DNA of 64,000 nucleotides from Burkholderia catarinensis. Lineage in GTDB: Bacteria; Pseudomonadota; Gammaproteobacteria; Burkholderiales; Burkholderiaceae. The stretch lies in assembly GCF_001883705.2 (NCBI RefSeq), contig NZ_MDEQ02000002.1, positions 372,001-436,000 of the forward strand, read 5' to 3'. Every line of letters starts with the position of its first letter. Positions within the stretch are counted from its first letter, which is position 1. Positions 10,278-31,446 of this stretch are shown piece by piece. Under the pieces are notes generated by a model. It did not search any database. It saw only the letters and a program-made list of their open reading frames with translations, and was not told where the DNA came from. The translations under genes and the position numbers were made by a program.

Positions 10278-10288
10278 CGCGGGGCCTC

Positions 10289-13122: not shown

Positions 13123-13151
13123 TCCCTGCCACTTCAAGTAAGGAGACAATC

Positions 13152-15520: not shown

Positions 15521-15561
15521 CGAAGCAAAGAGGAAATTTGAAGACGAAACGGAGAACGACG

Positions 15562-15948
15562 ATGAAGACGATGAACGGCATCAGGGCGGTACTCTGCATC
15601 GTGATCGCGGCGGTGACGAGTGACGTGTCGGCGCAGGCGAGCGCGCCTGTCGAGGCATCGGCGAATACGTCGGGCGGCGCAGCGGTCGCCGCGTCCGGCG
15701 GAACATCGGCAAAAGCCTTGCGGCAGGCCAACCGCGCGCTGCGGCGCAAAGTATACGCGGCGCTCGCGCAGCACAAGGAGATCGACGCGGGCAGCATCAG
15801 CGTTACCGCGAAAGGCGGCGCAGTCACGCTGAACGGTACGGTGGCCGAAGCGTCACAGATTGAAACGGTCGGCAATGTCGCGAAGAGCGTCGCCGGCGTA
15901 ACATCGGTGACTAATAAAGTTGCGATCCAGCGTCCGTTAGGGCAATAA
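15562..15948 (+). CDS. BON-domain periplasmic protein
   Basis: A 128-residue protein with a signal peptide (MKTMNGIRAVLCIVIAAV, cleavage after VSA), an Ala/Ser-rich linker and one C-terminal BON domain of about 65 residues containing ISVTAKGGAVTLNGTV and VAGVTSVTNKV. BON domains bind phospholipid and often act in envelope maintenance. The ATG at 15562 follows GGAGAACGACG; a TTG at 15538 after GAGGAAA is a less likely alternative. It is 41 nt downstream of the porin gene and is probably cotranscribed with it. Confidence 0.82.
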   Translation: MKTMNGIRAVLCIVIAAVTSDVSAQASAPVEASANTSGGAAVAASGGTSAKALRQANRALRRKVYAALAQHKEIDAGSISVTAKGGAVTLNGTVAEASQIETVGNVAKSVAGVTSVTNKVAIQRPLGQ

Positions 15949-16041
15949 CAAGAATGTCAACGCGTGCCAATCTCAGCCGGGGTTAGTTGTACTGGCTTAT
16001 TGGCTGCGAAGGGAATTGCAAGTTTGCTTGTTGTTTTTCTT

Positions 16042-16068
16042 GGGGCAACCCGCTTTGTGGGTTGCCCC
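16042..16068. terminator. Strong hairpin after BON gene, possible terminator
   Basis: A perfect 10-bp stem (GGGGCAACCC/GGGTTGCCCC) with a 7-nt loop lies 94 nt after the BON gene. No T-run follows on either strand, so it is either a terminator needing other factors or a structured spacer. Confidence 0.4.
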
Positions 16069-16231
16069 GCCGTACTGTTCTTGAAGCGCCACATTTTCGA
16101 GCGAAACATGTCGCCGGCACCGGCAGAGGTCATCCTGATCAGACGACGGCAGATGGTCACGGGCAATATGATGGTGCGCCTGAAATCGTCATACTATTAA
16201 TGTTCGAAATCCTTCTCCGGAGCTTTCTGCA

Positions 16232-16690
16232 ATGTCATCGCGCATCGACGTTCACTTCTTCCGCATCCTTGCGGACAGCTACCACCGGCTGCTCGACAAG
16301 TCGCTCGTTCCTGCCGGGATGGGCACGTCCGAAGCTGCGACATGGCTGTACGAGGAAGCACCTTTCGGGATTCTCGCGCACGATGTAGCGGTAGATCCCG
16401 TGTTCGTCTACGGCAACAAGCGCGCGCAAGCCATTTTCGGATATGACTGGGATGACCTGACCGCACTGCCTTCACGGTTCTCGGCGGAGCCGATGGAGCG
16501 AAGTGAACGCCAGTTGTTTCTCGAGCAAGTCGCGCGAGACGGCTTCGTGTCGGGATATCGCGGAATACGTATCACCAAGTCCGGCACACGCTTCTGGATC
16601 GATCACGCGACGGTGTGGCAACTCACGGATCCGGCCGGGAATCACTGCGGTCAGGCAGCGATGATCCCGGAGGTGCGCGCCATTGGGTAG
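16232..16690 (+). CDS. MEKHLA-domain (PAS-like) protein
   Basis: A 152-residue protein that appears to consist of a single MEKHLA domain, a PAS-related sensor module first seen in plant HD-ZIP III proteins. Visible features are FRILADSYHRLL near residue 10, EAPFGILAHDV, FVYGNKRAQAIFGYDWDDL near residue 60 and the closing FWIDHATVWQLTDPAGNHCGQAA. There is no attached output domain. The ATG at 16232 is supported by CGGAG upstream. It is flanked by unrelated small genes, and no partner is evident. Confidence 0.75.
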   Translation: MSSRIDVHFFRILADSYHRLLDKSLVPAGMGTSEAATWLYEEAPFGILAHDVAVDPVFVYGNKRAQAIFGYDWDDLTALPSRFSAEPMERSERQLFLEQVARDGFVSGYRGIRITKSGTRFWIDHATVWQLTDPAGNHCGQAAMIPEVRAIG

Positions 16691-16872
16691 TTTCCGCAAA
16701 CCTGACGCGTGCCCCGAAATCGGGACCAGATAACGAATTCGTAATCAACGGCTCACCTTCTGGAAAGTGCCCGCCCCCGAGAATGGAGTCGCACTCTTCA
16801 TCGCACTGGATGGAGAGCGAAGCACCCAAACCTCTCCCGGATTCGGTCATATCCCTCCAACAGGTGAATATC

Positions 16873-17193
16873 ATGAAGACTCTGATTCGTGCAGTACTGA
16901 TCTCGTGCGCATTGAGCGCTCCCATCATTGCTTTTGCACAAACCGCCGGCGGTCCTCTCACGCGTGCAGACGTGCGTGCCGACCTCGTGCGTGTCGAAAG
17001 TGCCGGGTATCGTCCGGTCGGCAGCGATCCGTACTATCCGGATGACATCCAGGCGGCGGAGGCCAAGGTCGCCGCGCAAAAACCGGACGCGCGGCCTGCG
17101 CAGTCAAATGCGAGTGCGCACGCGTTCAACGGCCGCGGCGCATCGGTGTCGTTCGCGTCGAACGATGCAGCGGGCCTCTTTGAACACCATTGA
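16873..17193 (+). CDS. DUF4148 periplasmic protein
   Basis: A 106-residue exported protein of the DUF4148 family, common and multicopy in Burkholderiales and of unknown function. It has a signal peptide (MKTLIRAVLISCALSAPIIAFA) followed by the family core LTRADVRADLVRVESAGY and the typical YYPDDIQAAEAKV. The ATG at 16873 follows AGGTGAATATC. It stands alone between the MEKHLA gene and the antitoxin-like gene on the opposite strand. Confidence 0.85.
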   Translation: MKTLIRAVLISCALSAPIIAFAQTAGGPLTRADVRADLVRVESAGYRPVGSDPYYPDDIQAAEAKVAAQKPDARPAQSNASAHAFNGRGASVSFASNDAAGLFEHH

Positions 17194-17308
17194 ACGGGCC
17201 GATGACACTGGAACGGACGGAACGCGTGGTGCGTTCCGTCAGACTGCGTAGTACTTCCATCGAAAGCCATTCTCTCGAGTTTCACCTGATCGGAACATCT
17301 TTCGCGAA

Positions 17309-17638
17309 CTATCGCATGGTAACGCCGTGCTTTCTGAACATCGGTGGTTCCCGATCGAGCTGTTCTGCAGTCTTGTAGTCGAAGGCTGGCAACGGCTCAT
17401 TGCTATACCAGAAGAGCGTGCTCTGCATGTTCCCGGAGATATCATTCGCCGCTCGGATGATCCGGAGCGCTTCCCGAAGGTACTTTTGCACACTTTCGGA
17501 ACCGGCAAGGCGGCTCACCGTATTGCGATGAACATGGGCCAGCCGCGCGAGCGTTTGCATATCGATATGCAAGGCCGCTGCGAAGCGTCGTGCCGAAACG
17601 ATAGGCGCCGCGCTCTCCGGATCCCTGAGGGACGCCAT
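17309..17638 (-). CDS. Xre/MbcA/ParS-type antitoxin domain protein, orphan and possibly truncated
   Basis: A 109-residue protein with an N-terminal helix-turn-helix (MQTLARLAHVHRNTVSRLAG) and a DUF2384-type toxin-binding segment (IIRAANDISGNMQSTLFWYS, then AFDYKTAEQL). Intact members continue with a 'GRxxxVLxYL'-like tail; here the frame ends with an unrelated tail (DREPPMFRKHGVTMR), so the C-terminus may be frameshifted. No RES-domain toxin lies on either side. The ATG lacks a clear ribosome binding site, and the codons upstream in frame look coding-like back to a stop at about 17702. It may be a relic of a toxin-antitoxin pair. Confidence 0.5.
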   Translation of the reverse strand: MASLRDPESAAPIVSARRFAAALHIDMQTLARLAHVHRNTVSRLAGSESVQKYLREALRIIRAANDISGNMQSTLFWYSNEPLPAFDYKTAEQLDREPPMFRKHGVTMR

Positions 17639-17701
17639 GAACTGTTCGAAACCGCTGGGTGGCGGGGAGTCGTAGGCGATGTCACCTTTTTTGCGAACCT
17701 A

Positions 17702-18420
17702 CAACTGCTTGCGGCGAGAATTCCTGCCCGTGCGTTCCGTCAATGTCGGCGGCGGGTCGATCCCGGCGACCGGCCGGCCGGTGCCGGATCCGGTGTTGCG
17801 GTCATTCAATTGATTGATCGTGACGCACGGCTGTGCCGACACGCATGCGCTTGCCGACGATCTCGCGAAACATTCGCAGTGGCGCTGCAGGATTTCGGAA
17901 TAAGTTAAGTAATGTCGATTTTAAAAACATCGGCGAACATTGTTCAAATTACAGAAACGATTTAATTTTAATTTTCGGCCGATCAAACAAAATTTCCGCG
18001 GCAGCAAAGGTCGTTGAGTCCACCCCGTCATTCAATGTCGTCATGCCCGGATAACGCATGTCGGGCGGTAGTTTGACGGCGATGAAGAATTTCGACCCTT
18101 TATTTGCGACCCGAAGATCCATCGAAAATGTAAAGCATTGCAATATAAAATCCCGGGCCGGGTATTCCGGTTGCGGTGCGTGATTTTATTTGGCAGGATT
18201 TTCATCAGGTTGTCCGATTTTAAAACAACAAAGCGCTCGACAATTCAATTTATCGAAATAACGCGCGGCGCCTGGGCAACGATTGGAAAGGAAGCTGACC
18301 AGAAAACAGGTAACGAGGCGGCGAACAGTCGGCACCGTTCGCGATCATTGAATCACTCGCTTGCCCGGCGGCGTCGATGCGCCGCTCGAGCGATCCGGGC
18401 GAATCCGACACGGGGCAGTC
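17702..18420. other. AT-rich intergenic region before the TOMM locus
   Basis: About 0.7 kb without a convincing gene. From about 17890 to 18270 the sequence is markedly AT-rich (runs such as TTTAATTTTAATTTTC near 17960) compared with the GC-rich surroundings. It probably contains the promoter of the FHA-kinase-TOMM operon and is the kind of tract bound by H-NS-like proteins. A 64-codon minus-strand frame (17949-18143) lacks a start signal and any domain. Confidence 0.5.
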
Positions 18421-19422
18421 ATGGCGATACTCAAGAACGATTCTTCCGGAGAAGCATGCCTGCTCCGCGCGTATCACGTGTTCGGCCGCGACGACGCGCG
18501 CTGCGACACGGTCATCCGGGATGGGTCGGTGTCCCGTGTCCATGCCCATATCCGCTGGGTCGGCGGGCTCTGGGAGCTCCACGATCACAGCAGCAACGGC
18601 ACGTCGGTATCGGGCGTCGCGTTGCGCGACGGCGAGCACGCGGTGCTGCAGCAAGGCGACGTGATCCGGTTCGGCAGGGCGGGCATTGCGCCCTGGCGTG
18701 TCGAGACGCTCGACGATCCGGCCGATACGCTGTGGCCGATACGAGGCGCCGCGGCCCCGATCGTGCTCGCGCCGCGCCAGATCCTGCCTGCCCCTGCCGC
18801 GCAGCCGGTCACGATCGTTCGTTCGCCGGCCGGCGAATGGCTGTGCGACGACACGTTGCCGCCGCGCGCGCTCCATGACGGCGATGAAGTGTCGACCGGC
18901 GACTTCGCGTGGCGCCTCGCACTCGTGCGCAACGGCTCGACGGTGATGCTCGCCGCACCCGCCGATCCGGCCGCGCCGGCGCAATTGCTCGAATTCTTCG
19001 TCAGCCGGAACGAGGAGCACGTGCGCATGCTGCTGCATGTCCGCGGCGGCGTGGTCGACCTCGGCGAGCGGGCCCATCACTACAGCCTCGTCACGCTCGC
19101 CCGCGCACGCTCGGCCGACATGCAGGCCGGCTACGACGCCGCCACGCAAGGGTGGATCGAACTCGACCGGCTGGCGCGCATGCTCGGCATCGATACGTCC
19201 CATGTCAACGTGCAGATTCACCGCGCGCGGAGCCAGTTCGCGGCCCTGCCGGGGCTGGGCGCGAGCCAGCTCGTCGAGCGCCGGCGCGGCAGCGTCCGCT
19301 TCGGCGATTTTCCGTTCCGCATCATGCGCGGCGAGCACCTCGAATGCCAGTCGGTGCCGGCCGCCGGGCCGCGTATCGGCGTGCAGCGTGCGGCGCCGGG
19401 CCCGGCTGTCCATTGCTCGTGA
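18421..19422 (+). CDS. FHA-domain protein of the TOMM locus
   Basis: A 333-residue cytoplasmic protein. The N-terminal ~95 residues are an FHA phosphothreonine-binding domain with the key GRD (VFGRDDARCD), SRVHA (DGSVSRVHAHIRW) and SSNGTSV motifs. A middle region of unknown fold follows, and the C-terminal ~110 residues resemble a winged-helix module (VTLARARS... ELDRLARMLGIDTSHVNVQI). The ATG at 18421 is used rather than a TTG 20 codons upstream. Its stop overlaps the GTG start of the kinase fusion (GTGA), so the two are translationally coupled. It probably reads out phosphorylation by that kinase. Confidence 0.82.
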   Translation: MAILKNDSSGEACLLRAYHVFGRDDARCDTVIRDGSVSRVHAHIRWVGGLWELHDHSSNGTSVSGVALRDGEHAVLQQGDVIRFGRAGIAPWRVETLDDPADTLWPIRGAAAPIVLAPRQILPAPAAQPVTIVRSPAGEWLCDDTLPPRALHDGDEVSTGDFAWRLALVRNGSTVMLAAPADPAAPAQLLEFFVSRNEEHVRMLLHVRGGVVDLGERAHHYSLVTLARARSADMQAGYDAATQGWIELDRLARMLGIDTSHVNVQIHRARSQFAALPGLGASQLVERRRGSVRFGDFPFRIMRGEHLECQSVPAAGPRIGVQRAAPGPAVHCS

Positions 19423-22400
19423 ACGCGCGAGAACCGGCCGTGTTGCCGACCGCATTGCGCGCGCCCGCCGGGCCGCACGCCGTTGAACCGCGGCAGCACG
19501 CCGTGCCTTTCGCCGAGCTTGCCGGCAAACGGCATTACCGGCTCGGCGCGCTGCTCGGCGAAGGCGGCAACGGCGTGGTGTTTCGCGCGACCTGCGACGA
19601 GACGGGGCAAGACGTCGCGATCAAGCTGATGCGGGACGATGCCGCGCTGAGCGCGGCGGAGCGCGTGCGCCGGCGTGCGCGCTTCCGGCGCGAGACGAGC
19701 CTGTGCGAGGCGCTGCGGCATCCGAATATCGTGGCGCTGCTGGATCAGGGGGAGGCGCCCGACGGGCGGCTGTTCGCCGTATTCGAACTGGTGCAGGGCC
19801 GGACCCTGCGCGACCGGCTCGCGGCGGAGGGGCCGCTGTCGGCCGTCGACACCGGGCGGCTGATGACGGAGGTGCTCGACGCGCTCGCGGCCGCCCATCG
19901 GCGCGGCATCGTGCATCGGGACCTGACGCCGCAGAACATCGTGATCACGATCGCCGATGACGGGCCGCACGCGAAGCTCCTCGATTTCGGCATCGGTGCG
20001 TTGCTGCCCGGTACCGAAGACATCGCGTGCCAGACCGCGACGCTGGCGACCGAGGTGCTCGGCTCGCCACCCTACTGCGCGCCGGAGCAATTGCGCAACG
20101 AGCCGCCGACGCCCGCAAGCGACCTGTATGCGTGGGGCCTGATCGTGATCGAATGCCTGACGGGCGATGTCGTCATGCAAGGCGCAAGCGTGGCCGACAT
20201 CCTCTATCAGCAACTGAGTCCCGTCGATGTCGCGCTCCCGCCGTCGATCGCGTCGCATCCGCTCGGCGCGGTACTGCGGCACGCGCTGAACAAGAATCCG
20301 CAGCAGCGTGCCGCGTCGGCCGACGCGCTCGCGTCGCAGTTTCGTGCGCTCAACTTCGCCGCGCTCGTCGGCCAGTTCGATGCCGGTCGCGCGAGCCGGC
20401 AGACGCGTCAGCGCCCGCTTGCACCGCACGGCGAGACGATTGCCGCGGTCGGCGAGTACCGGCAGATCACCACGCTGTGCTGTTGCGTGACGATCGCCGG
20501 AGAGGGCCGGCAACGCCATGCCGGAACCGAGCACGGCAATGCGCTCGACGGCTACGAGGAGCAGTGGCTGACGAAGTGTGCCGATATCGCCGTCGGTTAT
20601 GGCGCGCACGCAGGCGGGCGGCTCGGCGACACGCTGCTGTTCCATTTCGGCCTGCAAGGCGATATCGACCGGCCCGCGCGGCGCGCGGTGCGGGCGGCGC
20701 TCGACATGGTGCGGGAAGCCGGGCGCGCGCGGCTGCCGGTGCCGGCGGCGGCCGGCGCCCGCTTCGTCGGAGCAGGAGAAAGCTGGCGGGTCGAAGTGGC
20801 CGCCGCGATTCATGTCGGGCAGGTTCTCGCGCATGCGTCGCACATGTCGGGCGTATCGACGCCAGCCGCGGCGTCCCGGCTGCTGCGGCTGGCCGGGCCC
20901 GGACAGATTCTGATCAGCGACGATGCGCGGCTCGCGCTCGAACGGCATGCCGATTCCCGGCCGACCGCGTTGCGGCTGGCGCGGGCGGGCCTCATGCCGC
21001 AGCCGGTTCATGAATTGCTCGGCGAGCGGCACGCCGATACGCCGTTCGATTCGCTGGACGCCGGCATGCGCACGCCCATGGTCGGCCGCACGCGCGAACT
21101 CGACGCGCTGCTGCGCGCGTGGCGGGAAACGCAAGGGCGCCATCGTCGCGCGATGCGCGGCGAGCCTGCGCCGCACGGTGTGCCGCGGCTCGTCGTCGGC
21201 GACGCGGGGCTCGGCAAGTCGCGGCTCGTCCACGAGCTGTGCGAGGCCGTCCGGGCCCGGGGCCACGCCTTCGCGCATGGCGGGTGCCTGCCCGAGCGGG
21301 AGAACCACGCGCTGTTTCCGGTCCTGCGGTTCATCGGCGCGCATTGGCATATCGATGCCGATAGCCCGCCCGGCGTCGCGCTCGCGGCGATCGACGCGAT
21401 GATCGCGCCGCTCGACTGCGATCATGCGGCAGCCCGTGTCGCGCTCGCGACCTGGCTGGGGCTGCCCTGCGATGCGAAGGGACTCCTGTGGTCGAGCGTG
21501 CGTGAGCAGCACGCGCTGTTCGACGTCCTCGAGCAACTGATCGTGTCGCTCGGCAACGGCGCTCCGGTGCTGCTCGTGATCGAGGACGTTCAGTGGATCG
21601 ATCGCTCGACCGAGGACTTTCTCGCGTATCTGCAGCGCTCGCCGCGCGCAGCGGCACTGTGCATCGTGCTCACGTCGCGCCCCGACAAGCTCGCTCGCTG
21701 GCGCGGCGCGACCGACCGCGTGGTGCTGCGCCGCCTGCCGCGCGACGACGCGCAGCGCCTGATGTCGGCGCACCTGGGCCAGGGTGCGTTCGATCCGGCG
21801 TGGCTCGACCAGCTTGCCGATCGCACGGCGGGTATCCCGCTGTTTATCGAGGCCGTCGCGCGCGAGTTGACGATGAGCGGCGCGGACGGTTCGCACGCAG
21901 GGCCGTGGGCAACGGACCCTTATCCGCTTCCGCTCAGCCTCGGCGGCATGCTTGGTCTTGCGTTCGACCGGATCGACGGCGCGCGCGACACCGCGCAGCT
22001 CGCCGCGACCATCGGGCTCGAGGTGGATGCACAACTGCTCGCCGACGCATCGCCGCACGATCGGGCCACGCTCGACGCGCATCTGCGGCTGCTGCTCGAA
22101 GAGCGGATCGTGTATGCGCAATATCGGCGCGATCGCGTGTTCTATTCGTTCCGCCATGCGCTGATTCGCGACGCCGCGTATGAATCGATGCCGCCGGCCG
22201 TGCGGCGCGGCAACCATGCGCGCGTCGGCCGTGCGCTGGTCGCGCAAGCCGATCGCGGCGCCGGTGCGCATGCGTTCGGCGTCGCCGGGCACTTCGCGCG
22301 CGCAGGCGCTTGCGCGGACGCGATCGCCCACGGCATCGACGCGGCGCGGCGCGCACTCGAACGTTCCCGGTACGACGATGCGATCCGCTACGGGCAGGCC

Positions 22401-23468
22401 GTTTTCGACTGGCTCGGCACCGCCGACTATGCGCAGCGCGAGCACGACAGTGCGCGCATCCGCGCCACGTTGACGCACGCGACGATGGCGCGATTCGGCT
22501 GGGCGGATCCGCAGGTGCGCGAGCATGCGGAGCAACTGCTGCGGCAAATGCAGACGCTCGACGATCCGGAACTCGAGATCAGCGCGTTATGGACGTTGTC
22601 GACCTACTTTCACGTCGCAGGCGATCGTTCCACCGTGCGCGGGATCGGCCTGCGGCTCGACGCGCTCGCGACCGAGCGCGGCGATGCCGGCGTTCAGGTC
22701 GCGGCGGACGCGATGCGCGGCATGAGCCTGTGGGTCGACGGCCACTATGCGCGCGCCCGTGCCGAGTTCGACGCGGTGCTGGCCGGCTATGACGTGCGAC
22801 GCGACGCGGGCCACCGGCGCATCCTGGGGCTCGATACGCGCGCATGGACGATGGCGTCGCTCGCGAGCGTGCGCTGGTGCATGGACGACGACCCGCAGGC
22901 CTCGCTCGCGATGGCGCGCGAAGCCGTGTATTGCGCGACGTGCCTCGACCATCTGCCGACGCTCGGCGTCACGATGATGTACCTCGCACGCATGTACCAG
23001 CTCGCGGGCGATCGCGACGCGGCGCGATCGTTGTCGGCAGCGATTCTCCGCCTGTCGGAGGCGCACCGGCTGCGCGCGGTCGGGCACTACGCCGCGATCA
23101 TCCATGCGTGGACGCAAGGGGATCGCGCGGGCGTCGTCGCGCATCTCGACGCGCAGCGGCAGTCGGGCGGCCTGCTCGGGCTGACCTACTACGCGTCGCT
23201 GCTTGCCGAGCTGGATGCCGAGCGCGGCGACTACGACGCCGCGCTCGCGCAGATCCGGGAGTGTCTCGCATGGTGCGAGTCGACCGGGGAACGGTATTAC
23301 GAAGCCCAGTTGTTGCTGAAGCAGTGCGAGTACCTGCGCCGGGCCGATCCGCGCTGCGGCGGCGTGGCCGCGCTGGACGCGTGCCGGCGCGCAGTCGAAA
23401 TTGCAACGACGGCGGGCATGGGCCGGATCGCCAGGCTCGCCGAAGCGACGTTGCAGTCGTTGCCGTAA
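19419..23468 (+). CDS. TOMM-system Ser/Thr kinase/cyclase-like/AAA fusion protein
   Basis: A 1349-residue multidomain protein matching the kinase/cyclase fusion type that accompanies TOMM peptide loci. Residues ~41-310: Hanks-type kinase with GEGGNGVVF, K69 in VAIKLM, HRDLTPQN at 166-173 and DFG. Residues ~345-535: class III cyclase-like domain (GEYRQITTL... LGDTLLFHFG) in which the usual first metal-binding aspartate is replaced (TLCCCVTI). Residues ~560-850: AAA-type ATPase with Walker A GDAGLGKS near 594 and Walker B LLVIEDVQWID. The rest is helical and TPR-like. The GTG start at 19419 overlaps the FHA stop. Likely a signalling regulator for expression or activity of the peptide locus; its role is unproven. 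Confidence 0.85.
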   Translation: MNAREPAVLPTALRAPAGPHAVEPRQHAVPFAELAGKRHYRLGALLGEGGNGVVFRATCDETGQDVAIKLMRDDAALSAAERVRRRARFRRETSLCEALRHPNIVALLDQGEAPDGRLFAVFELVQGRTLRDRLAAEGPLSAVDTGRLMTEVLDALAAAHRRGIVHRDLTPQNIVITIADDGPHAKLLDFGIGALLPGTEDIACQTATLATEVLGSPPYCAPEQLRNEPPTPASDLYAWGLIVIECLTGDVVMQGASVADILYQQLSPVDVALPPSIASHPLGAVLRHALNKNPQQRAASADALASQFRALNFAALVGQFDAGRASRQTRQRPLAPHGETIAAVGEYRQITTLCCCVTIAGEGRQRHAGTEHGNALDGYEEQWLTKCADIAVGYGAHAGGRLGDTLLFHFGLQGDIDRPARRAVRAALDMVREAGRARLPVPAAAGARFVGAGESWRVEVAAAIHVGQVLAHASHMSGVSTPAAASRLLRLAGPGQILISDDARLALERHADSRPTALRLARAGLMPQPVHELLGERHADTPFDSLDAGMRTPMVGRTRELDALLRAWRETQGRHRRAMRGEPAPHGVPRLVVGDAGLGKSRLVHELCEAVRARGHAFAHGGCLPERENHALFPVLRFIGAHWHIDADSPPGVALAAIDAMIAPLDCDHAAARVALATWLGLPCDAKGLLWSSVREQHALFDVLEQLIVSLGNGAPVLLVIEDVQWIDRSTEDFLAYLQRSPRAAALCIVLTSRPDKLARWRGATDRVVLRRLPRDDAQRLMSAHLGQGAFDPAWLDQLADRTAGIPLFIEAVARELTMSGADGSHAGPWATDPYPLPLSLGGMLGLAFDRIDGARDTAQLAATIGLEVDAQLLADASPHDRATLDAHLRLLLEERIVYAQYRRDRVFYSFRHALIRDAAYESMPPAVRRGNHARVGRALVAQADRGAGAHAFGVAGHFARAGACADAIAHGIDAARRALERSRYDDAIRYGQAVFDWLGTADYAQREHDSARIRATLTHATMARFGWADPQVREHAEQLLRQMQTLDDPELEISALWTLSTYFHVAGDRSTVRGIGLRLDALATERGDAGVQVAADAMRGMSLWVDGHYARARAEFDAVLAGYDVRRDAGHRRILGLDTRAWTMASLASVRWCMDDDPQASLAMAREAVYCATCLDHLPTLGVTMMYLARMYQLAGDRDAARSLSAAILRLSEAHRLRAVGHYAAIIHAWTQGDRAGVVAHLDAQRQSGGLLGLTYYASLLAELDAERGDYDAALAQIRECLAWCESTGERYYEAQLLLKQCEYLRRADPRCGGVAALDACRRAVEIATTAGMGRIARLAEATLQSLP

Positions 23469-23501
23469 GTGGTTCCATTCGTCAATCAGGAGAGCATACC
23501 G

Positions 23502-23846
23502 ATGAGCAAGGATCTTCGATTACCGACGTACGAACAGTTTCTCGAATACCGGGCAACCGTCATTCGGGCGATCGCCCTCGCGTGGCATTCCCCGGAGTTT
23601 CTCGACGAGCTCGAGGCCGATCCGGTCCACGCATTGCGCGAGCATTTCGACTATCACTTTCCATTCAAGCTCGACCTGAAGGTGCAGATCAAATCGTCGG
23701 CGTGGACGCCGACCGTCAACGGCGACTGGACGGCCGGCCAGAAAAACAAGCTCACGCTGTATTTGCCGCCCGCACCGGCGGACGAGAAGCAATTCGCGCA
23801 GGCGCTGGCCGCTTACAACGCAAACCACATCACCATCATGGAATGA
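23502..23846 (+). CDS. TOMM precursor-like peptide 1 (BMA_0021 family, no core cysteine)
   Basis: A 114-residue peptide with a nitrile-hydratase-alpha-type leader (FLEYRATVIRAIALAWHSPEF, LEADPVHALREHF). It starts at an ATG behind AGGAGAGCATACCG. Members of this Burkholderia family are substrates of fused cyclodehydratases, but this one has no cysteine anywhere and ends ...YNANHITIME, so Ser/Thr would be the only residues open to cyclisation. It may instead pair with precursor 2 as a chaperone-like partner, or be a degenerate substrate. It lies 33 nt after the kinase gene and 16 nt before precursor 2. Confidence 0.8.
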   Translation: MSKDLRLPTYEQFLEYRATVIRAIALAWHSPEFLDELEADPVHALREHFDYHFPFKLDLKVQIKSSAWTPTVNGDWTAGQKNKLTLYLPPAPADEKQFAQALAAYNANHITIME

Positions 23847-23862
23847 CCTCAGGGAAACCGAC

Positions 23863-24225
23863 ATGGCACAGGACAACGCTAATCCGACGCTCGAATCGAT
23901 GCTGGAGTTTCAGAAGGTCTATCTGCGTGCGATCGCGCTTTCATGGCGGGACCCGGCGTTCAAGCGCGAACTGCTGGACAAGCCGCTGGATACGCTCGCG
24001 AAATACTTCGGTTACCAGTGTCCGTGGATCCTCGACATCGAGATCGCGAAGACGCACGGCGATCATGGCTGGACCAGCGACGGGAATGGCGGCGGGAGCT
24101 GGAACCTGCCGCGCAACGTGATGACGGTCGGCATACCGGAGCAGCCGACGAACCTGGACGAGGAGGCCGTTGCGCTCGCGGCCTACTGCGACGCAGGGCC
24201 GAGCTACCTGTTCACCTGCTGCTGA
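23863..24225 (+). CDS. TOMM precursor peptide 2 (BMA_0021/0022 family, C-terminal Cys-Cys)
   Basis: A 120-residue precursor with the same leader pattern as peptide 1 (FQKVYLRAIALSWRDPAF, LLDKPLDTLAKYFG), a Gly/Asp-rich middle (WTSDGNGGGSW) and a short C-terminal core CDAGPSYLFTCC. The terminal Thr-Cys-Cys and Ser are likely sites for thiazoline/oxazoline formation. Leader length is unusually long for a RiPP, as is normal for nitrile-hydratase-type leaders. The ATG follows CAGGGAAACCGAC. The maturation enzyme is encoded 91 nt downstream, beyond a large hairpin. No dedicated protease or exporter is seen nearby. Confidence 0.87.
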   Translation: MAQDNANPTLESMLEFQKVYLRAIALSWRDPAFKRELLDKPLDTLAKYFGYQCPWILDIEIAKTHGDHGWTSDGNGGGSWNLPRNVMTVGIPEQPTNLDEEAVALAAYCDAGPSYLFTCC

Positions 24226-24248
24226 CCTGGCGCGGCCGAGCCGCGCCC

Positions 24249-24287
24249 CATCGCGCGACCCGGGCCGGTTGCCCGGGTCGCGCGATG
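24249..24287 (+). terminator. Perfect 17-bp hairpin between precursor and cyclodehydratase genes
   Basis: A perfect 17-bp inverted repeat with a 5-nt loop (arms 24249-24265 and 24271-24287; core CGCGACCCGGGC/GCCCGGGTCGCG) starts 24 nt after the precursor 2 stop. There is no T-run. It is well placed to stabilise the precursor mRNA or partly stop transcription, so that peptide is made in excess over enzyme. Confidence 0.65.
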
Positions 24288-24316
24288 TCTGTTGATCCTC
24301 CGCACGGAATCCGACG

Positions 24317-26554
24317 ATGCTTGATGACCTTTCGCGCGTGTTGCGCTTCAAACCGCATTTGCTCGTGCTCGATGCGGGGCCCGAGACCCTGTTCGTCGTC
24401 GACGAATTCAAGCGCGCGATGCTGTCCGGCGCGATCTTCGTGCGGATCGCCGCCTGCCTGCGGGCGCGGATGACGATCGCCGAGATCGTGACATCGCTTG
24501 CCGGCACGTTTGGAGAATGGGATGTGCTCGCGCGGCTCGATCACCTGGTGCGTCGCGGGTACGTGCGCGCCGACTCGCCGCACGACGACGATGCCGCGCG
24601 CGGCTTCTTCGAGCGCGCCGGGCTCGACGGTGACGCGGCTTGCGCGCGCGTCGTTCAACTGCGCGTCGCGGTCGAGGCGTTCGGCGCCGACGATGCGGCG
24701 CTCAGGCGCGCGCTCGACACGGCCGGCATCGATGTCGTGCCGGACGCCGAACTGACCGTCGCGATCGCCGATACGCACGACCGCGACGATCTCGCCGCGT
24801 GCGCCGCCCGCGTGGCGGCGCGCGGCGGGGCATTGCTCCTTGTGGCGGCCGGTGGCGTGCAGACGCTGATCGGGCCGTTGCTGGCCGGCGGCGGCGCGCT
24901 GGCCGACGCGCCGTGCATCGAATGTGTGCGCTACTGGATTCGCATCAACCGGCCTGTCGAGGCGCTGCTTGCGCGCCATCACGGCAGCGACGCGACGCGT
25001 CTGCCGCCGGCCACCTCGCGCGCCGGGGCAGCAGCGGCGGCGGCGCTCGTGGCGGCGACGGTCGAGCAGATCGCGGTCAACCGCACGGTAGCGGAACGGT
25101 CGCAAACGTATATCGTGGCGCAGCGCATCGACACGTTGGCCGCCGAACGGCACCGCGTGCTCAAGCGTCCGCAATGCCCGTGCTGCGGCAATCCCGCGTG
25201 GATGCGCGAGCAGGCGGCGCGGGCGCCGCGACTCGCCGGGCAGGTGCCGTTGGCGCGCGCCGACGGCGGCTACCGTACCGCCGATCCGCAACAGGTGTTC
25301 GAGCGTCACGCGCATCTGATATCGCCGGTCAGCGGCGCGGTCGCGTATCTGCACCCGATGCCGAAGCGACACGCGGGCCTGCGCAAGGTCTATGCGTCGG
25401 GCTTTCTCGTGTGCCCGGCCGCCGTACCGGGCAGCAACCGGTTCGACAGGATCTGCTCCGGCAAAGGCCGCACCGACGAGCAAGCCCGCGTGAGCGCGCT
25501 ATGCGAAGCGCTCGAACGATACAGCAGCGTGTATCAGGGCGACGAGGCGACGTTGACCGGCAGCATGGAAAGCCTGCTCGCCGATCCGGCTTGCGATGCC
25601 GAGCCCATCCACGTGAACGATCTTCAGCAGTTCAGCGAACGGCAATTCGACGCACGCGATGCGATCAACGCGTTGACCCGCGATGTCCGCAAGCAGGTGC
25701 CGGCGCGCTTCACGTCGCGCGACGTCATCGACTGGACGCCTGCATGGTCGCTCGTGAGCGGCAGGCGCCGCCTCGTGCCGCTGAGCTACTGCTATGCGGA
25801 AACGCTCGACAGTGCGCAGGCGCCGGCCGCATGCGTGCACAACCCCAACGGCTGCGCGGCGGGTTCGAGTGTCGACGAGGCGATTTTGCAGGGCATGCTC
25901 GAATTGATCGAGCGCGATGCGGTCGCAATCTGGTGGTACAACCGGATTGCTCGCCCCGGCATCGATCTCGCGAGTTTCGACGATCCGTATTTCGATGCGC
26001 TCGTGCGTGAATACGCGACGTTCGGGTGGCGTGTGTGGGCGCTCGACATCACCACCGATCTCGGGGTGCCGACCGTGGCCGCGCTGGCGGAAAATCCGCA
26101 GGACGGGCGTTTCTCGATCGGCTTCGGCTGTCATCCGGACGGCCGGATCGCGGTGCAGCGGGCACTGACCGAAGTCAACCAGTTGCTCGATATCGCCGCG
26201 GATGCGCCGCATCCGTGGGACCGCGACAAGCTTTCGGCAACCGGATTCCTGTATCCGGCGGCGGGCGTGCGCGCAACGACGCGCTCGACGTGGCAGCCGG
26301 TCGATGCCGCGTCGTTGCCGGCGGCGCTCGCGCATTGCACCGGGCGCATCGCGGCGGCCGGCATGGACGTGCTCGTCGTCGACAAGACGCGGCCCGACAT
26401 CGGCTTGTCCGTGGTGCAGGTCATCGCGCCGGGGCTGTGCCATTTCTGGCCGCGGTTTGGCGCGCGACGGTTGTATTCGGTTCCGGTTGAACGGGGTTGG
26501 CGTGCGCAGCCGTGCGACGAAACGGAGCTGAATCCGGCGCTGCTGTTTCTGTGA
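24317..26554 (+). CDS. Fused TOMM cyclodehydratase (leader-binding/ThiF-like + YcaO)
   Basis: A 745-residue fusion of the two halves of a TOMM heterocyclase. Residues ~1-95 look like the winged-helix leader-recognition element. A ThiF/E1-like part follows with zinc cysteine pairs C200/C203 (CIEC) and C287/C290 (CPCC). The YcaO domain begins near residue 370, with ATP/Mg residues expected in SALCEALERYSSVYQGDE and MLELIERDAVAIWWYN. It should use ATP to turn Cys/Ser/Thr of the precursor into azolines. The C-terminus reads ELNPALLFL and has only one proline where azoline-forming YcaO proteins often have a Pro-x-Pro-like end. No FMN dehydrogenase accompanies it, so products may stay azolines. Confidence 0.88.
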   Translation: MLDDLSRVLRFKPHLLVLDAGPETLFVVDEFKRAMLSGAIFVRIAACLRARMTIAEIVTSLAGTFGEWDVLARLDHLVRRGYVRADSPHDDDAARGFFERAGLDGDAACARVVQLRVAVEAFGADDAALRRALDTAGIDVVPDAELTVAIADTHDRDDLAACAARVAARGGALLLVAAGGVQTLIGPLLAGGGALADAPCIECVRYWIRINRPVEALLARHHGSDATRLPPATSRAGAAAAAALVAATVEQIAVNRTVAERSQTYIVAQRIDTLAAERHRVLKRPQCPCCGNPAWMREQAARAPRLAGQVPLARADGGYRTADPQQVFERHAHLISPVSGAVAYLHPMPKRHAGLRKVYASGFLVCPAAVPGSNRFDRICSGKGRTDEQARVSALCEALERYSSVYQGDEATLTGSMESLLADPACDAEPIHVNDLQQFSERQFDARDAINALTRDVRKQVPARFTSRDVIDWTPAWSLVSGRRRLVPLSYCYAETLDSAQAPAACVHNPNGCAAGSSVDEAILQGMLELIERDAVAIWWYNRIARPGIDLASFDDPYFDALVREYATFGWRVWALDITTDLGVPTVAALAENPQDGRFSIGFGCHPDGRIAVQRALTEVNQLLDIAADAPHPWDRDKLSATGFLYPAAGVRATTRSTWQPVDAASLPAALAHCTGRIAAAGMDVLVVDKTRPDIGLSVVQVIAPGLCHFWPRFGARRLYSVPVERGWRAQPCDETELNPALLFL

Positions 26555-26589
26555 CATGACCGCGGGCGCGTCCATGGCGGCTGAACGCG

Positions 26590-26616
26590 CCGGGCGGACC
26601 GATTCGACCCGCCCGG
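26590..26616. terminator. Hairpin between convergent TOMM and aidA-like genes
   Basis: An 8-bp GC stem (CCGGGCGG/CCGCCCGG) with an 11-nt loop lies in the 120-bp gap where the cyclodehydratase gene and the aidA-like gene converge. It has no T-run; a bidirectional terminator is plausible. Confidence 0.35.
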
Positions 26617-26674
26617 TACCACCGGGCCCCTCGTGCGGATCATGCCCCGGCCATGTCGAGGTGCCCGTTCGGGA

Positions 26675-27250
26675 TCACTGGCTGGTGATGGTGAGGTACG
26701 CATCCCAGCTGACGTAGCCCTTCAGTTGCGCGTGCCGGTCGTAAATGGCGGCGACGAACGAATACGTTTCGTTGTTGCCAGGGCGGAGCACGGTCGCTTG
26801 CGCGTAGTAGTCCGCACGCGGTTCTTCCTTCACCTGGTTGTTGCCGGGCCAGCCGGGCGCCGGATAAGGCTCGGTGGTGTTGGCGGTGAGGTACGTAACG
26901 TTGCTCAGCAGATTGGCGGTCTTCGGAATGAAGTTATGCAGGAAGCACTTGTAGTCGGCCGTGTCGGTGAGCGACACGGTACGCCAGTGGATCACGTCGT
27001 CGACCTCGGCCTTGATCCGCAGATTGTTGCCTCCTTCGCCCTGGTTCGATCCCTGCGTCGTGCCCTGGCTGTAGCCGTACGCCGCATTCGCCAGCGTGGT
27101 GATCATGTAGACGGTATCGGGATTGTTCCCGAGCGACGTCGGCTGGCCCGAATTCTGGCTGAGCGAGTTGTTGTTCCTCTTCAGGATTTCAAAGACATCG
27201 AACGCGGTCAGCACATCGATGATTTTGAAGGTACTCAAGATATGAGACAT
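26675..27250 (-). CDS. AidA/PixA-family inclusion-body protein, copy 1
   Basis: A 191-residue member of the AidA/PixA family, cytoplasmic proteins made at high level late in growth; in Burkholderia cenocepacia AidA is quorum-regulated and linked to nematode killing. Visible features: MSHILSTFKIIDVLTAFDVF at the start, VYMITTLANAAYG, GGNNLRIKAEVDDVIHWRTV near residue 80 and a C-terminal FVAAIYDRHAQLKGYVSWD. The ATG at 27250 follows AAAGGAACTGCC. It lies 86 nt downstream of a paralogue and probably shares its promoter. Confidence 0.85.
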   Translation of the reverse strand: MSHILSTFKIIDVLTAFDVFEILKRNNNSLSQNSGQPTSLGNNPDTVYMITTLANAAYGYSQGTTQGSNQGEGGNNLRIKAEVDDVIHWRTVSLTDTADYKCFLHNFIPKTANLLSNVTYLTANTTEPYPAPGWPGNNQVKEEPRADYYAQATVLRPGNNETYSFVAAIYDRHAQLKGYVSWDAYLTITSQ

Positions 27251-27336
27251 GGCAGTTCCTTTCGGGTGAGAACGTAAAAAATGAATCGGGCAGCGGCGCG
27301 TGCGGTTGTCGAGCCGCTTGAGGAGTGCGTCCGCGC

Positions 27337-27891
27337 TCAGTTGAAAATCGTGATCGACGGGTCCCACTGGAAGTAGCCCACCAGCTCGCCGCGGTGCTGG
27401 TACACGGCGACGACGAACGTATAGGTCGCCGTTCCCGTGCGTCGCGCGGTGGCGTGCCAGTAGAAATCCGAGCCTGGCCGTTCCTTCACGCCGTTGGTCG
27501 GCCAGCCCGGCGCGGGATCGGGCTCGCTCGGGTAGGTATGCTCGAACTTCGGGGGGTACAGCGGCGGGTCATCCGCAGTCGTGGTGGCGATGATCTTGAA
27601 CGTGTGAATGAAGCACTTGTAGTCCGCCACGTCGGTCAGCGAAATCGTGCGCCACCGGACGACGTCGTTGACCTCGGCGCGCATGCTCAAATTGCTGCCG
27701 GCCTGGCCGGAAATGACATTCCGGTCCGTGGTGATCATGTAGACCTCGTCGTAGCCGTTGAACGGCAACAGGGTCGGTGTGCTCGGATCCTTGCTGAGTT
27801 GATTGCCCGGCCTTTGATAGCCCAGGATTTTTTCCACGTCGAACGCGGTCAGGACGTCGACGATGTTGTAGCTACTCAAGATTTGAGACAT
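27337..27891 (-). CDS. AidA/PixA-family inclusion-body protein, copy 2
   Basis: A 184-residue paralogue of the protein at 26675-27250, with the same start (MSQILSSYNIVDVLTAFDVE), the middle block GSNLSMRAEVNDVVRWRTIS and the ending FVVAVYQHRGELVGYFQWDP. The ATG at 27891 has GAAAGGAGTTGCA in front; a start five codons earlier is less likely. It is the first gene of the pair. Its upstream region carries a 22-bp motif shared with the LodA operon, 150 bp before the ATG. The duplication followed by divergence suggests that the two subunits may have separate or joint functions. Confidence 0.87.
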   Translation of the reverse strand: MSQILSSYNIVDVLTAFDVEKILGYQRPGNQLSKDPSTPTLLPFNGYDEVYMITTDRNVISGQAGSNLSMRAEVNDVVRWRTISLTDVADYKCFIHTFKIIATTTADDPPLYPPKFEHTYPSEPDPAPGWPTNGVKERPGSDFYWHATARRTGTATYTFVVAVYQHRGELVGYFQWDPSITIFN

Positions 27892-28131: not shown

Positions 28132-29316
28132 TCATCCGAGGTTTGACGATTCGGTGCACTGCCGCCAGAAATCCGCTGCCGGCCACCGCTGTTCGAGGCT
28201 GTAGAAGTGATGCCGCATCTGCAGGTAGTGCCGGTATTGCGCTTGCACCATCCGCGAGAACGCGTCCAGCGCATCAGGATCGCCGCCCATCCGTTTCCGG
28301 ATCGCCTCCGCCGCCGCGACGCCATGCGATAGCGACTTGATGATGCCTTGAGCCGTGATGGGATCGTAGGCCGCCGCCGCATCGCCGATTGCCAGCCAGT
28401 GATCGCCGTACAGCCGGTCGAGATGATGGGACGGCGCGGGATACGATTTCAGGCGCAGATCCAGCAGATCCAGGCCCAGGTCGCACACGAGCTGCCAGGT
28501 GCGCCGTGCGGCCCGCAGCATGCGATGCCAGGGCTCCGGCTGATGCAGCCGCATCGTCCGGACTGCCTGCGCATGCGTGGCGAACATGACGACGACCGTA
28601 TTGCCGGGCACGGACGCGAGATACCACCAGCCATGCTCGACCGCCTCGAGGTGGGTCAGCATCGAAGCAGGCGCGCCGGCGTCCGGCCGCGCAAGCCTTG
28701 CCGCAATGCAGATCAGCGGATTCGAATCGAGCCGTGTCGCGCCGCGCTGCCGGGCAAATACCGAGCGTGCGCCGCTGGCGTCCACGACGAAATCCGCCCG
28801 GACCCGCGACGCGACATGTGCCGCGCGTCCCAGGCTCAACGTGTACCCGGACGGGTCGCCCGGCCCGGATGCCAGAAGCGCGTGCCCGGTCAGCAATTCC
28901 GCACCCGCGGCGCGCGCTTGCGACGCGAGGAAGGCGTCGAACCTGCGCCGGTCGAGATGCCAGCCATGCCCGTGCGGGCTCAGCACGGAATCGTTATAGC
29001 CGCGCTTGTCGCTGCCCCAGTACGAGCAGCTGCCGTAGCAGGGCTCGTGCGCCTGCGCGACGAAGGCTTCGTCGATGCCGAGGCGCCGGAACAGTATCCG
29101 GCTCTCCGGCGGAATGCTCTCGCCGATCCGTGCGTCGGCATAGGAACCGGCTTCGACGACCAGGACGTCGGTGATGCCGGCCCTTGCCAACGCCAGCGCG
29201 CAACTGCTGCCCGCCGGCCCGCCGCCGATCACCGCGACCCGGTAGCGGGCCTGGCCGGGCGCGGGCGGATCCGGTCGTTCGACGGTCGGCATCTGCGTGA
29301 CCCATTCGGCGCGCAT
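28132..29316 (-). CDS. LodB/GoxB-like flavoprotein (quinone-oxidase maturase)
   Basis: A 394-residue FAD-dependent oxidoreductase related to tryptophan halogenases. LodB/GoxB proteins carry out the modification that builds the cysteine tryptophylquinone cofactor of the adjacent oxidase. Features: FAD fingerprint VAVIGGGPAGSSCALALARA near residue 27, GESIPPESRILFRRLGI near 65, and the second FAD motif WLAIGDAAAAYDPITAQGI near residue 315. It starts 9 nt after the LodA-like stop, with a GAGG motif inside that junction, so the two are cotranscribed and probably coupled. Confidence 0.85.
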   Translation of the reverse strand: MRAEWVTQMPTVERPDPPAPGQARYRVAVIGGGPAGSSCALALARAGITDVLVVEAGSYADARIGESIPPESRILFRRLGIDEAFVAQAHEPCYGSCSYWGSDKRGYNDSVLSPHGHGWHLDRRRFDAFLASQARAAGAELLTGHALLASGPGDPSGYTLSLGRAAHVASRVRADFVVDASGARSVFARQRGATRLDSNPLICIAARLARPDAGAPASMLTHLEAVEHGWWYLASVPGNTVVVMFATHAQAVRTMRLHQPEPWHRMLRAARRTWQLVCDLGLDLLDLRLKSYPAPSHHLDRLYGDHWLAIGDAAAAYDPITAQGIIKSLSHGVAAAEAIRKRMGGDPDALDAFSRMVQAQYRHYLQMRHHFYSLEQRWPAADFWRQCTESSNLG

Positions 29317-29325
29317 CTCGCGACC

Positions 29326-31446
29326 TCAGCCGTTATCGGGCGGCAGGAGCGGGTCAGTCACGGTGTTGGGCCACGGTTGAACGAGGTTGCTGTAGTCCCG
29401 CTTGAAGAGGCTTTGCACTTCGAGATAGTAGTTCGGCGGGTAACTGCTGTCGTACCGGTCGATCGCCACCCCCTGGATGACGAAGCCGATCTTGTCCCAG
29501 TTGAGCAGGAAATCGGGGCGATTCTGATAGCGCCCGACATTCATGGGCGGCGAGTTGAATATCCGGGTCGAATCCTGCTGAATGGCGGCCGTGCCTTCCC
29601 CGCGTAACGAGTAACGCTGCACGGGCAACTCGCCGTGGTTCGCGACCAGGTCGTCGTAGGTGTAGACGGCCACCGGCCGCTGTGCGGGCCAGGACCAGTA
29701 CAAGGTCGTGTTCACGCCGCTATAGACGTTGCTGCCGTCCGGCTTGATCTCGGCGCCCGGATTGGGCGAGGGCAGGTGCGTCGCACAGGAGTTGTAGTCG
29801 GTGTGCCACGGAATCGACATGAACTTGCACAGGTCGCCCGGCTCCACCTTGGCGTCGCGCCGCGGGAAATAACCGACACCGAGGAACGGCTGGTTTGCGC
29901 TGGCGGTCGTGTAGTCGAGCTTGCGCATGTTGATGCGGAAAGGGCCGACCACCGGGCCGACCGCGTGATCGGCCGACCAGCTCGGGTTGTACAGATTGGG
30001 ATCGCGGACGATGAACGTCAGGTCGATGCCGGGGCTGAGACGCCCGCCGAGGCAGTTCGAGAGCACGATCCTGTCGAGCGCCTCGCCGGGGCCGTACGAC
30101 GCCGGCGTGGCTTGCTCGGACATGCCGTTCGCCCATTGCTGGAGGAAAAAGTACTGTGAGTCGGTCAGGGTCAGGAAGCTGCTCTGGTTGTCGCCCAGCG
30201 CGAGCGGCATCAGCGGCGAGCCGACCGTCGACGACGGCGAATTCGGATGCGGACTCCGAATGAACGACATGATGTTGAAAGGCGGCTTGGCGGCCGTCAG
30301 CTTGTCGATATTCTCGTGGCTCTTCATTGCCTTGGCCGGCAAATTGGTATTCCACATCTGCAAGGACGCCGCGCGCAGGATCGGCAGGATGTGCTCGTCG
30401 AACGACGGCCGGAAGTCCTGCCGGTAAGCGAGGCGGTTGTGGATATCGGGGCGCAGCTGGAATGTCTCGATCCAGGTGGTCAGGATCTCGTCCCACAGCG
30501 TCACGACGTTTCTCGTCTGCGGCGCGTATGACGGATCGGTCGAGACCACCCACGCGCTGCTGTCTGCGGCGCGCACGGAGTCGTCGCTGAAAACGATCCA
30601 CGCGGTCACCGGGCCGTCGCCGGTGTCGTCGAGCCAGTTGTCGTTGTCGACATCCTGCCCCAGGGCGGCGTCGGCGGTCGCGCGGCCGTTGGCGTCGAAC
30701 CCGCACGCAAGGCCGAATGCGCCCAGCACGAGCAGGCGCCCGTTCGGCTCCGTGGTCATCGCGCCGAGCGTGGTGATCGGCGTGCTTCCCGATGTGGGCG
30801 GCAAGCTCACCACGTTCGACGCGGGAAACGAGATCGGATAACGCGGCACGTCGACCACGTCGCCGGAGGACGAGCCATAGCTCGCCCGCGTGTTCTTGTC
30901 GAACTCGACGGTTCCTCTCGCCGATGCCTTGATCGCGCGCGGCCCCGCATCGATGACGAGCTTTTGCAGTCGCGTCGTGTTCGAAGGATCGGACGACGAC
31001 GCGAAACCCGCGTTGCGGATCGGCGGATGCTTGTCGTTCTCGTAGGCGGGCAGTCCCGCGGGCGTTGACTCCAGCACCCAGCAGTTGGCCTTCTTGTTGG
31101 CGAGGTGCACGGTCCACACGATGTCCTTCACGACCTTGCCGTCCACCGACGAGCCGATCACGACTTCGGTGCCCGACCCGGACGGATAGCGGGTCAACGC
31201 CGCGTCGTCGTACTGATAGATCCTGAAGCGCGCGGCTTGCCGCTTGAGGCGCCCCTGGGCATCGCGCAGGTCGCTGCTGGTGATGGGCGTATTTTCCGTG
31301 CCCGGCTTGATCGGCAGCCCTCCCGTGAGGGCTTGCCCAGCGATCGGCAGCCCGGCCGAGGTCTCCGGCGCAATGTAGTACTCCTGGCTGCTACCGACAC
31401 GCGCGAATCCGATAGCGGGATGGATGCGTAACTTCGTGTTTGACAT
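29326..31446 (-). CDS. LodA/GoxA-family CTQ-dependent amino acid oxidase
   Basis: A 706-residue member of the LodA/GoxA family: oxygen-dependent oxidases that carry a cysteine tryptophylquinone (CTQ) made from their own Cys and Trp and release hydrogen peroxide, ammonia and an aldehyde or keto product. The N-terminus KLRIHPAIGFARVGSS is diagnostic. Candidate cofactor residues are C554 (in PWHTDYNSCATH) with D550 four residues before it, and W584 in LYWSWPAQRP. The Cys-Trp distance is 30 residues, shorter than in Marinomonas LodA (C516/W581), so it belongs to another subgroup and the substrate is open. AGAGG precedes the ATG. Confidence 0.85.
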   Translation of the reverse strand: MSNTKLRIHPAIGFARVGSSQEYYIAPETSAGLPIAGQALTGGLPIKPGTENTPITSSDLRDAQGRLKRQAARFRIYQYDDAALTRYPSGSGTEVVIGSSVDGKVVKDIVWTVHLANKKANCWVLESTPAGLPAYENDKHPPIRNAGFASSSDPSNTTRLQKLVIDAGPRAIKASARGTVEFDKNTRASYGSSSGDVVDVPRYPISFPASNVVSLPPTSGSTPITTLGAMTTEPNGRLLVLGAFGLACGFDANGRATADAALGQDVDNDNWLDDTGDGPVTAWIVFSDDSVRAADSSAWVVSTDPSYAPQTRNVVTLWDEILTTWIETFQLRPDIHNRLAYRQDFRPSFDEHILPILRAASLQMWNTNLPAKAMKSHENIDKLTAAKPPFNIMSFIRSPHPNSPSSTVGSPLMPLALGDNQSSFLTLTDSQYFFLQQWANGMSEQATPASYGPGEALDRIVLSNCLGGRLSPGIDLTFIVRDPNLYNPSWSADHAVGPVVGPFRINMRKLDYTTASANQPFLGVGYFPRRDAKVEPGDLCKFMSIPWHTDYNSCATHLPSPNPGAEIKPDGSNVYSGVNTTLYWSWPAQRPVAVYTYDDLVANHGELPVQRYSLRGEGTAAIQQDSTRIFNSPPMNVGRYQNRPDFLLNWDKIGFVIQGVAIDRYDSSYPPNYYLEVQSLFKRDYSNLVQPWPNTVTDPLLPPDNG

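Follow-up and report, generated by a model that had tools for sequence, protein, structure and literature searches.

An intact Burkholderia TOMM locus with a linked FHA protein and Ser/Thr kinase and a conserved peptide tail

A stretch of 64,000 nucleotides from Burkholderia catarinensis (RefSeq assembly GCF_001883705.2, contig NZ_MDEQ02000002.1, positions 372,001 to 436,000 of the forward strand; hereafter the window, from whose first letter all positions are counted) carries at 18421..26554 an intact member of a known, functionally uncharacterised type of thiazole/oxazole-modified microcin (TOMM) locus. Two precursors of a ribosomally synthesized and post-translationally modified peptide (RiPP) and their cyclodehydratase are encoded there together with an FHA protein and a large kinase protein. 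We find that the FHA gene is a stable part of this locus, which is new here. The explanation we consider best, with a probability of about 0.5, is that the locus makes, under control by phosphorylation, a nitrile-hydratase-like protein with an azoline tail. The five genes, with product lengths in amino acids (aa) and precursors of the Burkholderia nitrile hydratase leader peptide (NHLP-Burk) group, are as follows.

18421-19422, + strand: FHA gene, ATG start, 333 aa
19419-23468, + strand: kinase/degenerate cyclase/AAA gene, GTG start, 1349 aa
23502-23846, + strand: precursor 1 gene (NHLP-Burk), 114 aa, C-terminus without Cys; TIGR03795
23863-24225, + strand: precursor 2 gene (NHLP-Burk), 120 aa, ending YLFTCC; presumed substrate
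24317-26554, + strand: fused leader-binding/YcaO cyclodehydratase gene, 745 aa; TIGR03604, TIGR03882, PF02624

All five genes are intact on one strand; the FHA stop and the kinase GTG start overlap as GTGA, and the gaps between the remaining genes are, in order, 33, 16 and 91 bases. An earlier sequence-only reading of this DNA had described a one-directional block of an FHA gene, a 1349-residue kinase protein, two precursors and a fused cyclodehydratase, and family searches bear this out. The Pfam scan of the locus matched FHA, Pkinase, AAA_16 and YcaO, the last (PF02624) at 316 bits. In NCBIfam, the kinase protein scored 1989 bits with TIGR03903 (TOMM_kin_cyc; cut-off 706), precursors 1 and 2 scored 151 and 159 bits with TIGR03795 (cut-off 41; both named "BMA_0021/BMA_0022 family TOMM bacteriocin"), and the cyclodehydratase scored 251 bits with TIGR03604 (cut-off 219) and 98 bits with TIGR03882 (cut-off 37). 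Because these scores lie far over the cut-offs, chance open reading frames (ORFs) were ruled out. The whole window genome (8.2 Mb, 85 contigs) gave one YcaO match in total. That the type was already known from Burkholderia, with no established product, as the same reading held, agrees with the open-access literature searched. Haft, Basu and Mitchell described in 2010 (PMC2887384, in the sections consulted) Burkholderia tandem precursors, one with a C-terminal Cys or Cys-Cys, alongside a fused cyclodehydratase and a large Ser/Thr kinase; the tandem TIGR03795 genes, FTCC end, fused cyclodehydratase and large kinase are all found here, and the locus is not different in kind. The term FHA does not occur in the main text of that paper (term search), and no paper on the product or an FHA link of this TOMM type was recognised in the open-access literature, judged mostly by title and start of abstract.

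Among 65 genomes of the genus, TIGR03795 is present in 26 and TIGR03903 exceeds its cut-off in 34. The sequence-only reading had proposed a search for relatives in which the locus stands apart from the kinase and FHA genes; this test was run, and both genes are present in all 26 precursor-bearing genomes (25 fetched plus the window), as are both precursors and the cyclodehydratase, with the locus genes split over two contigs in G026. Outside the genus, the same gene order was found in Paraburkholderia, Trinickia, Dyella, Marinobacterium and another Burkholderiales (L026, L027, L030, L033, L036, L037, L040 and L128). A second order, in which the FHA gene comes last, after kinase, precursor(s) and cyclodehydratase, was seen in two more Burkholderiales (L129 and L130) and two Fibrobacterota (L043 and L059). 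Because the FHA gene is linked in 26 of 26 genomes and stays with the locus in the second gene order, we take it to belong to the locus. Kinase, precursor and cyclodehydratase are also present in four Myxococcota loci (L041, L055, L085 and L086). Matches over the cut-off occurred in 4 of 300 genomes of an order-wide sample and 2 of 398 of a phylum-wide sample, the window's own genome being counted in each. In a quickly built tree of 75 cyclodehydratases, which has several long branches and leaves out genes shorter than 640 aa (e.g., L035 and L042), the kinase-linked enzymes group together: the 29 of them need 2 changes, compared with a shuffled mean of 23.3 and 0 of 500 shuffles as low, and the second change is L034, on a contig beginning inside the gene.

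Of the 34 genomes that pass the kinase cut-off, nine have no precursors. These nine loci keep FHA and kinase and have lost all or most of the cyclodehydratase; the kinase is full-length in L093 and L094 and lacks its last third in the other seven. Breakpoints differ among L093, L094, L096, L097 and the remaining loci, so the peptide genes were lost several times. Four loci (L095, L098, L099 and L101) have one common junction and the same sequence after it; L100 matches only part. Apart from this, the different deletions in L094 and L096 end at nearly the same cyclodehydratase base (window equivalents 26018 and 26020), leaving the last part of the gene.

Selection was estimated as dN/dS by simple counting; the codon maps were put together from tblastn pieces, and stop codons were skipped. 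The intact set (n = 24; 23 loci plus the window) included L107 despite a single in-frame stop in its kinase, and left out L102 and L103, for a split contig, and L104, for its deleted kinase; the pooled set left out L100, which differs after its part-shared junction. Intact pairs gave medians of 0.21-0.32 across all five genes, i.e., purifying selection. For the four shared-junction loci, pooled dN/dS was 0.161 in FHA (bootstrap 95% interval, 0.092-0.240), compared to an intact median of 0.246 (64 pairs of similar dS), and 0.306 in the remaining kinase (0.251-0.362), compared to 0.251 (39 pairs of similar dS). No FHA stops were found in the nine loci; the counted kinase part held one (L096; G007), shortly before the deletion point, and a stop was flagged at the end of the truncated kinase frame of G030. 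Because purifying selection is seen after a shared deletion, the FHA-kinase pair probably keeps a function without the peptide and probably has another output besides it. Its persistence in nine genomes after the peptide genes were lost likewise indicates that the pair is probably more than the peptide's private switch; a strictly private peptide regulator was thought unlikely, as the remnant loci keep constrained FHA and kinase genes.

The sequence-only reading had spoken of two precursor-like peptides, which holds for family membership, both matching TIGR03795; a modifiable tail is present on precursor 2 only. Precursor 2, 94% identical to its Burkholderia ambifaria counterpart, ends in (T/S)CC in 33 of 33 distinct type-I copies, and precursor 1 has a Cys within its last 15 residues in just one of 32 distinct relatives, L027 (counts that leave out the duplicates L001-L018 and the fused or divergent L043, L055, L059, L061, L085, L086, L129 and L130). 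In kinase-linked loci outside Burkholderiaceae, FTC stands at the end or one residue off in 9 of 11, the other two having FCCC and LFC. The tail of precursor 2 is conserved across phyla, and precursor 2 alone looks like the modification substrate. A Verrucomicrobia locus without the kinase (L061) has two weak precursor-2 matches (8e-6 and 3e-5) with other ends. An alignment of 29 precursor 2 sequences, made up of the window's own and 28 from the 36 relatives found, shows no conserved Gly-Gly motif before the core, and Table 3 of PMC2887384 gives this cleavage motif as N/A for NHLP-Burk. The precursor leader was found to be nitrile-hydratase-alpha-like in fold. Such a folded leader is shared with proteusins and other NHLP RiPPs (TIGR03793), as is YcaO modification in some proteusin members; here, in contrast, TIGR03793 scored 23.6 bits on precursor 2, below its cut-off of 50.9, and did not match precursor 1, no conserved Gly-Gly and no linked peptidase-transporter were found, and the core is nearly invariant.

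LynD, TruD and MusD are cyanobactin cyclodehydratases that make thiazolines. The window cyclodehydratase aligned full-length with LynD (E 5e-107) and TruD (E 1e-106), sharing their fused architecture and long conserved blocks, with the paired CxxC motifs kept. Unlike in those systems, the precursor is a folded protein of 114-120 aa with a tail of 2-3 modifiable residues, and no linked PatA/PatG-type protease was found. The sequence-only reading had remarked on the lack of an azoline dehydrogenase, protease or exporter, and none was found near the locus among 30 further window ORFs scanned in Pfam, some ORFs being left unscanned. Because no linked dehydrogenase was found, azolines, rather than azoles, would be expected as the product. 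Transporters in the scanned ORFs comprised two major facilitator superfamily (MFS) genes and two porins (3614-5011, 14399-15520, 38878-39987 and 41979-43283), at least 2.9 kb from the locus; those from 38 kb on lie among alcohol dehydrogenase (ADH), short-chain dehydrogenase/reductase (SDR) and AraC-type genes.

The kinase protein is made up, in order, of a Ser/Thr kinase (residues 39-304, PknB-like), a degenerate cyclase homology region, an AAA_16 (STAND-like) domain and a C-terminal part. Kinase and Walker residues are invariant in 50 of 50 distinct sequences, and the activation-loop Thr208 is kept in 48. The earlier description of the protein as cyclase-like stands as homology and does not extend to activity. 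No cyclase domain was matched in Pfam at E 0.1, and the catalytic residues, placed approximately by the class III cyclase Asp/Asn motif, are mostly replaced: the presumed first metal Asp position has D in 1 of 50 distinct sequences and C in 30, and the position near the presumed catalytic Asn has N in 1 and A in 36. An active nucleotide cyclase was rejected on these grounds. The degenerate module also contains a Cys-Cys(-Cys) run at residues 354-356 (window 20478-20486), with C in 47, 45 and 30 of the 50 distinct sequences, which is a possible metal or redox sensing site. Separately, a related family of about 1160 aa without the kinase domain is common in the genus (e.g., G062:C3, G009:C1 and G048:C16), matching TIGR03903 from about 278 to 1265 at around 500 bits.

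The FHA protein has an FHA domain (residues 1-97), matched in Pfam and with the phosphothreonine-binding residues apparently kept, a beta domain (about 103-167) and a C-terminal domain (186-312) of winged-helix-like topology in the predicted model. The C-terminal domain is probably DNA-binding, to judge from this model; in P0110, on a short contig, it is fused to a response-regulator receiver, with 54% identity over 125 residues. EmbR of Mycobacterium is an FHA transcription regulator with an adjacent kinase, PknH. It was the top match in a structure search, in which FHA domains filled the match lists, and the two systems share an FHA domain and a gene beside a Hanks kinase. They differ in that FHA is N-terminal here, no BTAD domain was matched in Pfam, the DNA-binding domain is a predicted one, and the kinase is fused to cyclase-like and AAA parts.

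From these observations we infer the chemistry, phosphorylation, DNA binding and product role as follows. The LynD/TruD-like cyclodehydratase would bind the folded, nitrile-hydratase-like body of precursor 2, in keeping with a published model of an NHLP leader bound, as a folded protein, by a YcaO enzyme (PMC12455567, in the part consulted); precursor 1, with no Cys tail, would probably be the partner of precursor 2. The C-terminal Cys residues of precursor 2, and perhaps Thr118, would be converted to azolines, which without a dehydrogenase would remain azolines. The kinase protein would act as a sensor, its Hanks-type kinase being controlled by the degenerate cyclase module and by an AAA switch that ATP drives. 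The FHA protein would read phosphothreonine made by the kinase, most simply on the kinase's own activation loop, and through its probable DNA-binding domain phosphorylation would determine how the operon, and other genes as well, are expressed. Control of the locus by Ser/Thr phosphorylation, as the sequence-only reading had suggested, is proposed from linkage and intact motifs. It is possible that the peptides act inside the cell: no linked exporter was found, and the available part of PMC12322963 lists in the stationary-phase Burkholderia thailandensis proteome the "two-chain TOMM family" protein BTH_I0516 (log2 2.21) and BTH_I0515 (log2 2.08) as increased. Exposure to methyl jasmonate lowers a "TOMM kinase cyclase" transcript in a myxobacterium (PMC6997564, as excerpted). 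A fuller version, in which the product is a non-exported, phosphorylation-controlled azoline-tailed heterodimer of nitrile-hydratase-like type whose almost unvarying FTC(C) tail is metal-binding or cofactor-like and is used inside the cell in stationary phase, with the FHA-kinase pair also serving other genes, is put forward tentatively, and we consider it unlikely in all its parts at once.

Several observations weigh against the proposal of phosphorylation-regulated production. Peptide genes persist beside a kinase with an internal deletion (G038) and one with an in-frame stop (G009), and the window kinase has Thr in place of the HRDLK Lys found in 42 of 50 relatives. No clear FHA orthologue was found in the four Myxococcota loci, two of which have weak candidates. 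When compared by profile with OmpR-type domains, the FHA C-terminal domain gave a weak match that did not exceed a sigma-factor control (12% and 26% probability, respectively). The cyclodehydratase ends in NPALLFL or similar in the Burkholderiaceae clade, compared to NPxPxFL/NPxPxFM in many relatives. The assignment of BTH_I0515 as the second precursor would follow from its adjacent number and from a precursor-2 relative (P0135) likewise named "ABC transporter ATPase". An MFS gene of the window (41979-43283, 15 kb downstream) recurs no more than 10 kb away from 13 of 62 loci, in a comparison of neighbours that covers window ORFs and not genes specific to other species' loci; our reading of this recurrence is chromosomal synteny. 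Finally, no mass, phosphorylation or DNA-binding data for this TOMM type were found in the literature searched.

An FHA-kinase pair serving mainly as a general stress or stationary-phase regulator, with the peptide genes one output among others, would account for the nine genomes that keep the pair without precursors or an intact cyclodehydratase and for the constraint in the shared-junction loci; since the kinase of those four loci lacks its last third, the G007 kinase has a stop before the deletion point, kinase dN/dS lies slightly above the intact median and no target genes were identified, we hold this to be a serious competitor that is nonetheless doubtful. That the cluster is instead a remnant selfish or decaying one, functionless in this strain, is very improbable: its patchy distribution in the genus, order and phylum samples and its repeated losses are set against five intact genes under purifying selection and against induction of a precursor-family protein in Burkholderia thailandensis (PMC12322963, in the part available).

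An exported two-peptide bacteriocin, both precursors being matured and acting together outside the cell by way of a housekeeping or unlinked peptidase and exporter, is suggested by section 8 of PMC2887384, which proposes a two-peptide product, and by the pairing of precursors, which is strict in the genus (2 TIGR03795 matches in each of 26 genomes) and elsewhere can occur in one open frame (e.g., L129, two matches in a 263-aa frame). However, 31 of 32 distinct copies of precursor 1 have no Cys close to the C-terminus, the tail of precursor 2 shows no diversification, and no linked exporter or peptidase was found among the scanned window ORFs, so that we think this explanation quite unlikely; a conserved exported toxin or signal is possible. 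Since the tail hardly varies and neither a linked exporter nor a linked peptidase was found, a conserved molecule that is intracellular or resembles a cofactor or signal is a more probable product than a bacteriocin that evolves rapidly. Altogether, the stability of FHA, the one conserved tail and the survival of the pair without the peptide speak for a regulated product that is conserved and against a toxin that diversifies.

Around the locus, three further features were found.

18321..18342, no strand assigned: inverted repeat GCGAAC-N10-GTTCGC, 78 bases upstream of the FHA start
26675-27250, - strand: PixA/AidA-family inclusion-body gene 1, PF12306 94.5 bits; convergent, 120 bases from the cyclodehydratase stop
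27337-27891, - strand: PixA/AidA-family gene 2, in tandem, PF12306 113.5 bits

The inverted repeat was found in 27 of 29 Burkholderia cepacia-type upstream regions, with a spacer of 10 in 23, 11 in 3 and 8 in 1; its arms are invariant, and spacer sequence and length differ between species. It is kept in eight of the nine loci without peptide genes, is absent upstream of L105, L106, L112, L121 and nine other-genus or divergent loci, and occurs at 6 places in the 8.2-Mb genome, and it may be an operator or an RNA hairpin. A promoter scan returned three hits (1.1 expected), including one at 18122 on the + strand, and Rfam gave no match at E 1 over 17500-27500. As for the flanking DNA, G+C is 0.57-0.63 at window 2001-18000, compared to 0.67-0.71 in the locus, which suggests that the upstream stretch was recently acquired.

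The two PixA genes fall just outside 18421..26554 and are the sole PixA matches in the window genome; any PixA gene was found in 36 of 65 genus genomes. PixA adjoins the cyclodehydratase in 17 of 56 kinase-linked entries (14 distinct; the 56 include species fetched twice) as well as in the window, leaving 39 of 56 without it. In Burkholderia and Paraburkholderia it is convergent at 60-145 bases, and it is co-directional at 92-116 bases in two Trinickia and at 702 in Dyella. PixA is thus placed as a recurrent neighbour, and because orientation changes while adjacency is kept, there is a weak suggestion of more than shared ancestry. Beyond it, a Trp-halogenase-like FAD gene adjoins a LodA-like lysine epsilon-oxidase gene (window 28132-31446, - strand), possibly a separate quinone-cofactor oxidase locus.

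Relative to the 2010 description (PMC2887384, in the sections consulted), the additions made here are the membership of FHA, the restriction of the tail to precursor 2, its constancy across phyla, the PixA neighbour and the survival of the FHA-kinase pair after peptide loss. If phosphorylation-regulated production is correct, this would be a RiPP modification locus under the control of a Ser/Thr kinase and a phosphothreonine reader, with a peptide tail that is conserved and not diversified. Such a tail would run counter to the common picture in which RiPP cores are variable weapons; the 2015 survey PMC4603692, as excerpted, assigns hypervariable cores to NHLP precursors, NHLP-Burk included, and to Nif11 precursors. 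The purpose of the Burkholderia two-chain TOMM would then become testable, as would the targets of the FHA-kinase pairs left without peptide genes.

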